Position numbers and translations under genes: made by a program. From NCBI GenBank assembly GCA_945917985.1, contig CAMEIH010000016.1:1-52383 (forward strand): a stretch of 52,383 nt of DNA, given 5' to 3'. Positions 46,491-52,194 of the stretch are shown in pieces (position 1 is the first letter of the stretch; each line of letters begins with the position of its first letter). The notes under the pieces were generated by a model. That model had not been told where the DNA came from. It made no database searches and saw nothing but the letters and a program-made list of their open reading frames with translations. The DNA is from an uncultured Clostridium sp. Its GTDB lineage: Bacteria > Bacillota > Clostridia > Lachnospirales > Lachnospiraceae.

Positions 46491-46519
46491 TTGACAACAA
46501 AAAAATACCGCGTTATTAT
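46491..46519 (+). promoter_or_regulatory. trp operon promoter, with a palindromic -35 region
   Basis: A consensus TTGACA (46491-46496) is separated by 17 bases from TATTAT (46514-46519). The -35 box sits at the centre of a perfect 12-bp inverted repeat (46482-46493 and 46495-46506, ATTTTTTTGTTG and CAACAAAAAAAT). Transcription would start about 46526 and run into the T-box. Confidence 0.85.
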
Positions 46520-46544
46520 GAGATTAATTTAATATCACTTTAAA

Positions 46545-46818
46545 CCGTTGAAACGGAGATAAAGGTGATGATGCTCCCACAGAGAGCCCGGCGTGCTGAG
46601 AACGGGTGGAAAACAAGTCATCAAATGGACCGCTGAGGGTGCAGGGAAAAGCAGGTTTTCTGTTTGCTTAGTATTCTGCAACGTGGAGGCATACGTCAGT
46701 TGCCGGGGATATGTTGGTATCCTGTTAAGCGTACAGCACAGCTGTAAATCAAGGTGGCACCGCGGATCGATTATCATTCGTCCTTGACAGAAATCAAATT
46801 CTGTCAAGGACTTTTTTT
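46545..46818 (+). promoter_or_regulatory. T-box riboswitch for tRNA-Trp
   Basis: Stem I begins with GTTGAAACGGAGATAAAGGTG and carries the specifier TGG (Trp) at 46626-46628 in CAAATGGACC. The T-box sequence AAGGTGGCACCGCG lies at 46751-46764. A strong terminator follows (GTCCTTGACAG/CTGTCAAGGAC, 46780-46811, then seven T residues). Uncharged tRNA-Trp should favour the antiterminator and switch on the trp genes. Confidence 0.95.
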
Positions 46819-46862
46819 CGTCAGCAGAAGGTCAAAAGATGCTGCAACATAAAGGAGGCAAT

Positions 46863-47130
46863 ATGATAAAACCCAGTATCGACACACTAAAAGAACTGAA
46901 AGCTCAAAAGAGGTATTTACGGAGGTGCCATCGGCTACATTGATTTCACCGGAAATCTGGACACCTGCATTGCCATCCGCATTGCCTACAAGAAAAACGG
47001 CAAGGTGTTCATCAGAAGCGGAGCCGGCATCGTGGCAGACTCTGTTCCCGAGAAAGAGTATCAGGAATGTTTAAACAAAGCGGCAGCTGTTGTGAACGCA
47101 TTAAAAGCAGCCGGGGAGGTGACGGAATGA
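46863..47130 (+). pseudogene. trpE: trpE remnant with large internal deletion
   Basis: Anthranilate synthase component I is normally about 490 residues. Here the first 16 codons ([16 protein letters not shown]), with a good AAAGGAGG site, run straight into the last 74 codons of TrpE ([16 protein letters not shown], then the tail block [11 protein letters not shown]), in a different frame. Frame 0 stops at 46941-46943. The C-terminal part lies at 46906-47127. About 1.2 kb of the chorismate-binding core is lost. The junction is in AAAAGAGGTAT, which could have been a short direct repeat. The end still overlaps trpG by ATGA. Confidence 0.9.
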
Positions 47131-47699
47131 TTTTATTGATTGATAATTATGACAGTTTTTCTTACAACCTGTTTCAGCTCATAGGCTCCATCAACCCCGA
47201 CATACAGGTGATCAGAAATGACGCCGCTACCCCTTCGGAGATTGCCGCCATGAAACCGGAATCCATCATCATCTCCCCCGGCCCCGGAAGACCGGAGGAC
47301 GCAGGTATCTGTATTGATGTGGTAAAAGAGCTCGGGGAACATTTTCCCATTCTCGGTGTCTGTCTCGGCCACCAGTCCATCTGCAAGGCCTACGGCGCCA
47401 CCGTTTCTTATGCCAAAGAGCTGATGCACGGCAAGCAGTCTCTCACAATGCTTGATCCTGACTGTCCCATTTTTGCGGGCTGCCCCGAAACGGCTCCTGT
47501 TGCCAGATATCACTCACTGGCAGTGCTTGAGGAAACACTTCCCGTGTGCCTACAGGTAACGGCAAGAACGAATGACGGCGAGATCATGGCGGTGCAGCAC
47601 ACTGTAAACCCCGTTTACGGACTGCAATTCCACCCGGAATCCATTCTCACCCCGGACGGAAAGATCATGTTACAAAATTTTCTTAAGATTAAAAAATAA
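47127..47699 (+). CDS. trpG: Anthranilate synthase component II (glutamine amidotransferase)
   Basis: A 190-residue class I glutamine amidotransferase that feeds ammonia to TrpE, or to PabB for folate. It has [12 protein letters not shown], the nucleophile Cys in GVCLGHQSI, and the His-Glu pair QFHPESI. Start ATG at 47127 overlaps the trpE remnant stop, with GGGGAGGTGA upstream, so it no longer needs trpE translation to begin. With trpE broken, it has no partner in this operon. It may instead serve a PabB elsewhere. Confidence 0.95.
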
Positions 47700-47768
47700 A
47701 AAGCCCGAAAACTCTCTATTAAAATATAGAAACTCAAAATAAAGAATCAAAGAAAGGATATGAGAAAA

Positions 47769-48785
47769 ATGATCAAGGAAGCAATTGTTAAAATCGTTGA
47801 CAAACAGGACTTAACTTATGACGAAGCATACGCTGTCATGAATGAAATCATGAGCGGAGAGACTTCTCCTACACAGAACGCCGCTTTTCTGGCTGCTTTA
47901 TCCACAAAGAGCACCACAGCAGAAACCATTGATGAAATTGCCGGATGTGCCGCTGCCATGCGATCCCACGCATTAAAGGTAGAACACGACGGAGAGGTAC
48001 TGGAAATCGTGGGAACCGGCGGTGACGGTGCTCACAGCTTTAACATTTCCACCACCTCCGCCATGGTCATTGCCGCAGGTGGTGTCAAGGTAGCCAAACA
48101 CGGAAACCGTGCCGCATCCTCCAAGAGCGGCGCTGCAGACTGTCTGGAAGCCCTTGGTATCAACATCAATCTGGAGCCCGAAAAATGTACTGACCTCCTT
48201 CAAACCATCGGCATCTGTTTCCTGTTTGCACAGAAATATCACACTTCCATGAAATATGTAGGGGCTATCCGCAAGGAACTGGGCATCCGTACTGTTTTCA
48301 ACATCTTAGGACCTCTTACCAATCCCGCTTCCCCTTCCATGATGCTCCTTGGCGTTTATAACAAAGCACTGGTGGAGCCCCTTGCAAGAGTCCTTTACAA
48401 CCTGAGTGTAAAGAGAGCCATGGTGGTTTACGGCATGGATAAGATGGATGAAATTTCCGCAAGCTCCGAGACCTTTGTCTGTGAGCTGAACAATGGTGAC
48501 TACAAATCCTATACCATTAAACCGGAGGATTTCGGTTTTACCTCCTGTGCAAAGGAGGATCTGGTGGGCGGAACACCGGAAGAAAATGCACAGATCACCC
48601 TTGCCGTTTTAAAAGGTGAAAAAGGTCCCAAGAGAACTGCGGTTCTTTTAAATGCCGGTGCCGCTCTTTATATTGGCGGTAAGGCTGACAGCCTTGCAGA
48701 CGGTGTGAAGCTGGCAGCAGAACTGATCGATAGTGGCAAAGCACTTGCCAAGCTGGAGGAGTTTAAAACGGAAAGCAACAAGTAA
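47769..48785 (+). CDS. trpD: Anthranilate phosphoribosyltransferase
   Basis: Joins anthranilate to phosphoribosyl pyrophosphate. The 338-residue protein carries the PRPP site [14 protein letters not shown], and [21 protein letters not shown], then GPLTNPA. I chose the ATG at 47769 (MIKEAIVK), with AAAGG about 11 bases upstream; an ATG at 47760 has the site too close. There are 60-70 bases after trpG with no visible signal. Confidence 0.95.
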
Positions 48786-48811: not shown

Positions 48812-49597
48812 ATGGCAACCATTCTTGATACTATTGCTGCATATGCGGCAGAAAGAGTGGCGGCTGCCAAAGCGCAGGTGCCACTTGAAGAAATTAAGAA
48901 ACAAGCACTCTCCATGGACTGCAACACCGGCTTTCCTTTTGAGAAAGCACTCCGCCAGAGAGACATCAGTTTTATCTGCGAATGCAAGAAGGCATCCCCC
49001 TCCAAAGGACTGATTACAGAGGATTTCCCCTATCTTGCCATCGCAAAGGATTATGAGGCTGCAGGAGCATCCTGTATTTCCGTACTGACAGAGCCCAAGT
49101 GGTTTCTCGGCGGTGACAATTATCTGAAAGAAATCACAGAGGCTGTTTCCATCCCCTGTATCCGCAAGGATTTCACTGTGGATGAGTATATGATCTACGA
49201 AGCAAAGCTTCTCGGGGCAAGCGCCGTGCTCCTTATCTGTTCCCTGCTATCGGAAGAAACCATCAGAAATTATATTGAAATCTGCGATCTGCTTGGTTTA
49301 TCTGCTCTTGTGGAAGCCCACGACGAGGAGGAGATTGCTTCTGCTATCCGTGCAGGCGCCCGCATCATCGGTGTGAACAACAGAAATCTCAAGGATTTTA
49401 CCGTGGACGTTCACAATTCGGAGCGACTGCGCAGACTGGTGCCGGAATCCGTGCTTTTTGTGGCGGAGAGCGGTATCCGTACTTCAGCAGACATTGATGT
49501 ACTCCGTCATGCCAACGTCAATGCAGTGCTGATCGGCGAGACACTGATGAGGGCACCTGACAAAAAGGCCATGCTGGATGCGCTGCGAGGGATTTGA
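48812..49597 (+). CDS. trpC: Indole-3-glycerol phosphate synthase
   Basis: Closes the indole ring. At 261 residues it shows the family blocks FICECKKASPSKGLI (catalytic Lys), CIRKDFTVDEYMIYEAKLLGA, EAHDEEE, GVNNRNLKDF and VAESGIRT, in order. It begins 26 bases after trpD with AAAGG upstream at a long spacing. It is not fused to trpF. Confidence 0.96.
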   Translation: MATILDTIAAYAAERVAAAKAQVPLEEIKKQALSMDCNTGFPFEKALRQRDISFICECKKASPSKGLITEDFPYLAIAKDYEAAGASCISVLTEPKWFLGGDNYLKEITEAVSIPCIRKDFTVDEYMIYEAKLLGASAVLLICSLLSEETIRNYIEICDLLGLSALVEAHDEEEIASAIRAGARIIGVNNRNLKDFTVDVHNSERLRRLVPESVLFVAESGIRTSADIDVLRHANVNAVLIGETLMRAPDKKAMLDALRGI

Positions 49598-49623: not shown

Positions 49624-50229
49624 ATGACAAAAGTAAAGATCTGCGGATTAAAGTCAGAAGATGATATTTCCTATGCAAATGAACTAAAGCCGGACTATAT
49701 CGGATTTGTCTTTTTGCAGGGCAGAAAGCGGTATGTTTCCCCTTCCCATGCCGCACATCTAAGGGAACTGCTTGACCCTTCCATTCCGGCTGTCGGGGTT
49801 TTTGTCAACGAACCTCTGGAGCATGTCATTTCGTTGGCAGAAAGCGGAACCATCCAGATAATCCAGCTTCACGGACAAGAGGATGAAACCTATCTTAGAG
49901 AACTGCGAAAGAATTGTGGCATGCCTGTGATCAAAGCCTTTATCATCAGAACAAAGGAAGATATGGAAAAAGCGCTTCTCTACCCTTCCGATTATCTTTT
50001 GCTGGACAACGGACTCGGCACGGGGGAAGCCTTTGACTGGTCTCTGATTGAAAAGATAAACAGACCCTTTTTCCTGGCCGGCGGCTTACATCCAGAAAAT
50101 GCCGCTTCCGCCATAGAACTGGCACACCCCTATGCACTGGATGTGAGTTCCGGGGTGGAGACCGATGGAAACAAAGATTACGAAAAGATGAAAGCATTTA
50201 TTCATACAGTAAGAACAACCGCTAATTAA
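49624..50229 (+). CDS. trpF: Phosphoribosylanthranilate isomerase
   Basis: Rearranges phosphoribosylanthranilate for TrpC. The 201-residue barrel has VKICGLKS (catalytic Cys), [14 protein letters not shown] (catalytic Asp), [10 protein letters not shown] and [14 protein letters not shown]. The ATG at 49624 is 7 bases after AAAGGA; an earlier frame to 49594 overlaps trpC and lacks a site. Confidence 0.95.
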
Positions 50230-50240
50230 GGAGGAAATTT

Positions 50241-51431
50241 ATGTCACAGTCAAAAGGACGCTTCGGAGTTCACGGCGGTCAGTACATTCCCGAAACACTG
50301 ATGAACGCCGTTATCGAACTTGAAGAAGCTTACAACCATTATAAGGATGATCCCGAATTTAACAGGGAGCTCACTTCTCTGTTTAATGAATATGCGGGAC
50401 GTCCAAGCCGCCTGTATTACGCAGAAAAAATGACAAAAGATCTTGGCGGTGCCAAAATTTATTTAAAACGTGAAGATTTAAACCACACCGGTTCCCACAA
50501 GATCAACAATGTGTTAGGTCAGGCACTCCTTGCCAAAAAGATGGGCAAAACAAGGCTGATCGCAGAGACAGGCGCCGGTCAGCACGGCGTGGCTACCGCC
50601 ACTGCAGCCGCATTGCTTGGCATGGAATGTGTGGTCTTTATGGGCGAGGAAGATACGAAAAGACAGGCACTCAACGTTTACAGAATGAAGCTTTTAGGTT
50701 CAGACGTTGTTCCCGTAAAGACCGGAACCGCAACCTTAAAGGATGCTGTTTCGGAAGCCATGAGAGAATGGACAAGCAGAATTGATGATACCCACTACTG
50801 CCTTGGTTCGGTTATGGGACCTCATCCCTTCCCCACTATCGTCAGAGATTTTCAGTCTGTGATCTCCCGTGAGATCAAGCAGCAGATTCTGGAAAAGGAA
50901 GGACGTCTCCCCGATGTGGTCATGGCCTGTGTGGGCGGCGGCAGCAACGCTATGGGTACCTTCTATCATTTCATCGAGGATAAAGATGTGAAACTGATCG
51001 GATGTGAGGCAGCGGGCAGGGGCATTGACACCTTTGAAACCGCAGCTACCATCAACACCGGACGACTCGGCATTTTCCACGGTATGAAGTCCTACTTCTG
51101 TCAGGACAAATACGGTCAGATTGCTCCCGTGTACTCCATCTCTGCAGGGCTTGACTATCCCGGCATCGGTCCGGAGCACGCATGGCTTCACGATACCGGC
51201 AGAGCCGAATATGTTCCCGTTACCGATGAAGAGGCGGTAAACGCCTTTGAATATCTCTCCCGCACGGAGGGCATTATTCCTGCTATTGAGAGTGCCCATG
51301 CAGTGGCACACGCCATGAAGATCGCACCCACTCTTTCAAAGGATAACATCATGGTCATCACTATTTCCGGTCGCGGCGATAAGGACTGTGCAGCCATCGC
51401 ACGCTACAGAGGGGAGGATATCAATGAGTAA
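50241..51431 (+). CDS. trpB: Tryptophan synthase beta chain
   Basis: Condenses indole with serine using pyridoxal phosphate. The 396-residue protein has the PLP-binding Lys in [33 protein letters not shown] (active-site Glu) and the phosphate loop [10 protein letters not shown]. The start follows AAGGAGG. It overlaps trpA by 8 bases. Confidence 0.97.
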
Positions 51432-52194
51432 GATTCGAGAAGCCTTTGCAAAGGGCAAGGCATTTATTCCATTTATCACCTGTGGGGATCCCGATCTTGA
51501 CACCACTAAGGCAATTGTGCGCAGTATGGTGGCAAACGGCGCCGACCTGATCGAGCTTGGCATCCCCTTTTCCGATCCCACCGCAGAGGGCCCTGTAATC
51601 CAGGGTGCCAACTTGAGGGCACTATCCGGCGGTGTCACCACCGACCAGATCTTTGATATGGTACGGGAGCTTCGAAAAGATCTCACTGTTCCTATGGTCT
51701 TTATGACCTATGCCAATGTGGTATTTTCCTATGACGCGGAAAAGTTCATCGGCACTTGCGCCGAGATTGGTATTGACGGACTGATCCTCCCGGATCTTCC
51801 CTTTGAAGAAAAAGGAGAATTTGACGACACCTGTAAGAAATACGGCGTGGATCTGATCTCCCTGATCGCTCCCACCTCCGCAAACCGAGTAGCCATGATC
51901 GCCAAAGAGGCGCAAGGCTTCATCTACATCGTATCCAGCCTCGGTGTCACCGGTGTGAGAAGTGAGATCAACACCGACATCGCTTCCCTGGTGAAACTGG
52001 TGCGGGAAAATTCCTCTGTTCCTTGTGCAGTGGGCTTTGGTATCTCCACCCCGGAGCAGGCTGCCAAAATGGCAGGCATATCAGACGGTGCTATCGTGGG
52101 TTCCGCCATCATCAAGCTGGTGGCCAAGTACGGCAAGGATGCCGCAGAGCCTGTGGGAGAATATGTAAAGAGCATGAAGGATGCGCTGAGATAA
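51424..52194 (+). CDS. trpA: Tryptophan synthase alpha chain
   Basis: Splits indole-glycerol phosphate and hands indole to TrpB. The 256-residue barrel has the catalytic Glu in ELGIPFSDP and the phosphate site [10 protein letters not shown]. The second catalytic Asp (Salmonella Asp60) is replaced by Glu in AEGP, instead of the usual ADGP. I recall this variant in other Firmicutes. The ATG at 51424 lies inside the end of trpB, with GGGGAGG upstream. No plus-strand terminator with a good T run follows. Confidence 0.95.

Follow-up and report, generated by a model that had tools for sequence, protein, structure and literature searches.

The window, that is, the whole stretch of 52,383 nucleotides that was analysed, is the complete contig C16 of a Lachnospiraceae draft genome (G000; 2.9 Mb, 111 contigs, 88.5% complete). 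Close to its end, on the forward strand, lies a trp operon with the following features:

46491..46519, + strand: sigma-70-like promoter TTGACA-17-TATTAT (11 of 12 matches, 17-nt spacer)
46539..46788, + strand: T-box leader with specifier UGG (Trp) in the context TGGACC (RF00230, 86.6 bits, E 1.7e-19)
46780..46811, + strand: terminator hairpin of the leader, with a T run after it
46851..46858, + strand: ribosome binding site of trpE, AAAGGAGG, read directly
46863..46943, + strand: 5' remnant of trpE, about 16 original codons, then about 10 more read out of frame up to a stop
46905..46916, + strand: deletion junction in an imperfect 12-bp repeat with the exact core GGTAT (1,196 bp absent in comparison with G016)
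46906..47130, + strand: 3' remnant of trpE, about the last 74 codons (Chorismate_bind positions 1-197 of 257 missing)
47127..47699, + strand: trpG, amidotransferase subunit, intact, its ATG overlapping the trpE stop (TIGR00566, 205 bits, cut-off 121)
47760..48785, + strand: trpD, intact (TIGR01245, 417 bits, cut-off 199)
48812..49597, + strand: trpC, intact (NF001377, 338 bits, cut-off 260)
49624..50229, + strand: trpF, frame intact (NF002298 as best NCBIfam match, 175.5 bits, E 1.1e-51, short of the cut-off of 215)
50241..51431, + strand: trpB, intact (TIGR00263, 648 bits, cut-off 392)
51424..52194, + strand: trpA, intact (TIGR00262, 283 bits, cut-off 102)

The contig ends 189 bp beyond trpA. 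The closest relative among the genomes compared is G016, a Lachnospiraceae metagenome-assembled genome with an uninterrupted TrpE of 487 residues. Upstream of the lesion in trpE, its trp region is 95% identical to the window (924 aligned bp); downstream of it the identity is 93% (5,483 aligned bp).

Translation from the trpE ATG at 46863 yields 26 residues before a stop codon at 46941-46943. The frame starting at 46906 encodes 74 residues up to the trpE stop and matches only positions 198-257 of the 257 positions of Chorismate_bind. By gapless placement of the two arms on G016, 1,196 bp are missing, which is not a multiple of three; trpE, with its frame disrupted relative to intact orthologues by this deletion, would be a pseudogene. 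The first-pass annotation had claimed that about 1.2 kb of trpE was lost and that 16 codons were joined out of frame to the last 74, and had proposed to compare the gene with that of close relatives. This comparison confirmed the claim, as trpE of G016 is full-length and colinear with the window except for the 1,196-bp gap.

Apart from trpE, the operon is intact. Open reading frame lengths of trpGDCFBA in the window and in G016 agree within one residue, and that of trpF is identical in both. A promoter scan of the region returned four promoter-like sites against 1.1 expected. The T-box was absent at the Rfam gathering threshold (86.6 versus 93 bits) and surfaced in a search by E-value; both the UGG specifier context and the T-box sequence GGTGGNACCGCG are present in the leader. 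As the leader of the intact G016 operon likewise falls below gathering for RF00230, the low score of the window's T-box does not point to decay. The earlier impression that promoter, Trp T-box and trpGDCFBA look functional is thus borne out by the promoter match, the specifier, the profile matches and the reading frame lengths. In having a Trp T-box ahead of the trp genes (RF00230) the window resembles its congeners; it differs in that its first structural gene is broken.

In G016 the two arms of the junction, CAAAATAGGTAT and CAAACGGGGTAT, are alike in 9 of 12 bases (counted by eye) and share GGTAT exactly. When junctions were placed randomly in trpE of G016, exact runs of 5 or more bases had a frequency of 0.0055 in 200,000 draws, and 12-mers matching at 9 or more positions one of 0.0033 in 40,000 draws. 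This rarity supports the suggested slippage between short repeats, and the deletion is likely to have been repeat-associated. The additional prediction of a Lys-Arg run at both ends of TrpE held for the right arm and failed for the left one, which encodes Gln-Asn-Arg in G016. In G015 the right arm reads AAAAGAGG, close to what had been guessed from the window, and the repeat of the ancestor may therefore have been closer than that of G016.

The gap might have been produced by assembly or binning, with the source cells carrying a full trpE that the contig skips, and the fragmentation of the draft into 111 contigs would be in keeping with such an error. However, the longest exact match between the G016 arms is 5 nt, and assembler k-mers are far longer than that, so that a collapse of the assembly graph is not expected. 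Moreover, the flanks are colinear with G016 over the aligned lengths given above, and lesions of the same class are found at other breakpoints in G129 and G222, which are drafts too (see below). An artefact is thus considered very unlikely. Given only five shared exact bases and colinear flanks, we accept that at least some cells of the population carry the deletion. It might be confined to these, the assembler having kept the shorter of two paths; the allele state is known here from the consensus contig only, and a deletion that looks young may still be polymorphic. We regard such a mixed allele as a minor but genuine possibility.

The age of the loss was estimated from the 3' remnant of trpE, which over 72 codons shows six synonymous and no nonsynonymous differences from G016. 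With this pattern the deletion looks younger than the split of G000 and G016; the few substitutions fit a remnant that has diverged mostly under selection. In comparisons of trpG, trpD, trpC, trpF, trpB and trpA with G016, dS was 0.21-0.40 and dN/dS 0.011-0.143. As the loss appears too young, these ratios are uninformative about selection after the deletion.

The first-pass annotation had raised another TrpE or PabB as a backup source of anthranilate. In the draft genome of the window, which at 88.5% completeness could conceal such a gene, the trpE remnant is the sole match to PF00425 (E up to 10), and PF04715 (Anth_synt_I_N) has no match. Within the genus, PF00425 matches 23 of 37 genomes (own included) and no genome twice; this applies also to G016 and G003, whose listed completeness is 100%. 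A backup enzyme is thus unsupported and hardly to be expected; a trpE might lie on a missing contig of this 111-contig, 88.5% complete assembly, and the relatives discussed here are likewise multi-contig drafts. The accompanying claim that TrpG is left without a partner is supported in that no known partner was found. Kynureninase was considered as an alternative source of anthranilate and discarded, TIGR01814 being absent from all 37 genus genomes, and no internal source is therefore known. Chorismate synthase is present in 36 of the 37 genomes, own included; G019 has half of it only. Lacking a further PF00425 protein and kynureninase, the cell should need external tryptophan, anthranilate or indole.

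The explanation that we favour, and hold to be quite probable, is the following. Two short, imperfect repeats would have been the end points of a recent deletion of 1,196 bp, by which most of trpE was lost and its frame broken. This would have left the lineage without a detectable anthranilate synthase and TrpG without a known partner, while the Trp T-box still precedes trpGDCFBA. All enzymes leading from anthranilate to tryptophan are encoded. TrpDCFBA could convert anthranilate, so the predicted tryptophan auxotrophy should be rescuable by anthranilate, indole or tryptophan. The locus would stand near the start of a path on which relatives have gone further, either to a T-box-trpDCFBA operon without trpEG or to the absence of trp genes.

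The anthranilate-only state as such is already known. In PMC9026213, variant A3, consisting of TrpABCDF without TrpEG, is described for 38 human gut genomes, and salvage of anthranilate is proposed. The window resembles A3 in having kept the enzymes from anthranilate to tryptophan, TrpA, B, C, D and F being present, and apparently in having lost anthranilate synthase. The absence of TrpEG that marks A3 applies to it in part: TrpE is broken with no other copy in the draft genome, and TrpG is intact. With trpG and both ends of trpE still present, the window would be at an earlier stage and should work like an A3 genome. G031 and G033 of the same genus (see below) fit A3 as outlined in that paper. 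According to PMC3932018, the trp operon of Chlamydia pecorum comprises trpD, F, C, A and B together with kynureninase (kynU), and anthranilate could be obtained from kynurenine. The likeness lies in post-anthranilate trp genes without trpE/G, from which tryptophan could in theory be made from anthranilate; C. pecorum belongs to an unrelated lineage and, as described, has kynU, found in none of the 37 genomes of the window's genus. A limited literature search, mostly of abstract openings, returned no description of the window's trpE deletion. With respect to A3 (PMC9026213), what is new is an early step seen beside later ones in one genus; parallel lesions in G129 and G222 are added.

A TrpE with both domains over cut-off was found in 22 of the 37 genus genomes; in G012 the operon runs off the contig. 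Four of 26 genus loci are broken, namely that of the window and those of G022, G031 and G033, with trpE involved each time; in addition, trpE of L154 (G028) shows an in-frame gap, and a contig end truncates L058 (G012). In G022 (98% complete; L056:4626-5978), residues 1-198 of TrpE continue in frame into TrpA, starting at its residue 5, which makes a 450-residue open reading frame behind a T-box, and trpGDCFB are gone from the locus. In G031 (95% complete) and G033 (88% complete; L055:3520-8314), a T-box (90.5 and 88.9 bits, respectively) with UGG context stands directly before trpDCFBA; trpEG are absent, and neither genome has a PF00425 match. Both T-boxes were found by E-value and did not match at the gathering threshold of 93. 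G031 and G033 are unlike in the sequence that links the T-box to trpD.

A tree of concatenated TrpDCFBA placed G031 beside G001 and G002, both intact (support 94), G033 beside G003, likewise intact (support 73), and G000 beside G016 (support 100). This tree was computed in one run on 30 of 31 loci; G022 was left out, having one gene of the five, and genomes without trp genes are absent from it. As G016 is intact, the event in G000 is independent of the other losses in the genus. The losses in G031 and G033 are likely, though not proven, to be mutually independent.

Several further peculiarities were seen at trp loci of the genus. At L054:3267-9967 of G031, where trpEG are absent, an opposite-strand open reading frame of 525 residues, presumably an IS transposase by its resemblance, splits T-box-trpDCF from trpBA. 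The upstream neighbours of the G033 locus, which we take to be dehydrogenase-, amidohydrolase- and adenosylhomocysteinase-like, resemble those of G031. In TrpE of G028 (L154 / L097), an in-frame gap between the two domains takes out about 59 residues (156-214); Pfam still recognises both domains. In G014 (L053:308-1883) a T-box over gathering precedes a lone divergent TrpB, with no match to trpA, trpC or trpE, and in G012 (L057:5916-7046 plus leader) a T-box motif with UGG context likewise precedes a lone divergent TrpB. Both TrpB proteins, divergent at 51-53% identity, could serve indole salvage. Finally, three additional TrpA-like matches lie in a row at G009:C19:11087-14008, on a different contig from the normal trpA.

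These relatives bear on a serious rival, namely plain decay of the trp pathway with no period of anthranilate use, trpGDCFBA remaining in the window merely for lack of time. In eleven of the 37 genomes of the genus, none of trpE, trpC and trpA is over cut-off (G006 has only a TrpA-like fragment of 77 residues), and kynureninase is missing throughout. The extra losses of trpGDCFB in G022, which kept the trpE-trpA fusion, and of trpB in G222, which at its locus also lost most of trpE and the start of trpG, favour decay in those two lines. By contrast, G031 and G033 keep a full T-box-trpDCFBA, and between them dN/dS was 0.019-0.185 in four of the five genes, at dS of 1.6-2.8, trpD being saturated. 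The low ratios fit continued conversion of anthranilate to tryptophan, part of the history they record predating the losses. For the window itself we rate plain decay at somewhat less than an even chance.

The survey was extended to the family, in which 153 of 200 genomes (own included) have PF00218 (trpC) over cut-off. The PF00218 and PF00425 listings were compared by eye, and cases were picked for absence of PF00425. Six genomes have PF00218 and no PF00425 (G042, G069, G115, G206, G222 and G229); in G000 and G129, both with PF00218, the only PF00425 match is a weak one. In G042, G069, G206 and G229 the contig ends at or before trpE, so that the loss lies inside a contig only in G115 and G222. 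G115 (99% complete) has trpDCFBA without trpEG in 14 kb from a 237-kb contig. G056, with trpDCFBA and no trpEG in 14 kb, was not counted, as its genome contains two PF00425 matches. The converse, PF00425 without a PF00218 match, applies to G160, G164 and G204, and the asymmetry between loss of trpE and loss of trpC is therefore modest. In G042 (L165:6934-7380), trpG adjoins trpC, and the 7.4-kb contig contains no match to TrpD.

An internal trpE deletion was also found in G129, a member of another genus (84% complete; L162:4199-4940), in which residues 4-77 of TrpE are joined out of frame to residues 439-485. The broken gene lies behind a T-box of 80.6 bits (below gathering), with TGGACC at L162:4288, and before an intact trpGDCFBA; its deletion is an independent event. 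In G222 (86% complete; L163:1578-5300), a T-box sequence is followed by residues 2-34 of TrpE, which lead into TrpG at its residue 85, and then by trpDCF and trpA; trpB is missing from its place between the last two genes. G222 is labelled as another genus, yet adjoins G028 in the Trp tree (support 89).

As a control, 80 named trpG loci were inspected. TrpE was 85% covered in one piece in 73 of them (74 with a looser coverage cut), five were cut by a contig end, trpE of L097 has the in-frame gap already mentioned (about 59 residues), and that of L125 is frame-shifted. Three of these loci (L059, L060 and L097) appear to be the same as G016, G018 and G028 of the genus set. None of the 80 has a deletion of the window's type, and this state is thus uncommon beside an intact trpG. 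Split genes elsewhere in these loci affect trpA (L092), trpC (L095) and trpB (L110), and trpE is not claimed to be a preferred target. In a specifier scan of 30 loci, TGGACC was present in the scanned stretch of 26, the G129 copy lying just outside it; the T-box motif was missing in G014, G115 and G229, of which G014 has an Rfam T-box over gathering.

It is tempting to generalise that loss of anthranilate synthase alone is a repeated and selected first step in gut Lachnospiraceae, in which trpE breaks, trpEG are excised and T-box-trpDCFBA lives on the anthranilate of neighbours. If this were true, anthranilate would be a shared currency of the gut community; the idea is speculative, and we doubt that it holds in this general form. 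The deletion described here would, in our favoured reading, place the window, as a seemingly young intermediate, between a trp operon that is complete and the dependence on anthranilate already known from gut genomes. Counts of trp genes could rate such a genome as nearly complete for tryptophan synthesis despite the missing committed step. The bacterium probably needs ready-made tryptophan or anthranilate, and related bacteria have suffered similar losses, some in separate events. With several stages side by side in one genus, exchange of anthranilate among gut bacteria becomes testable on concrete loci.
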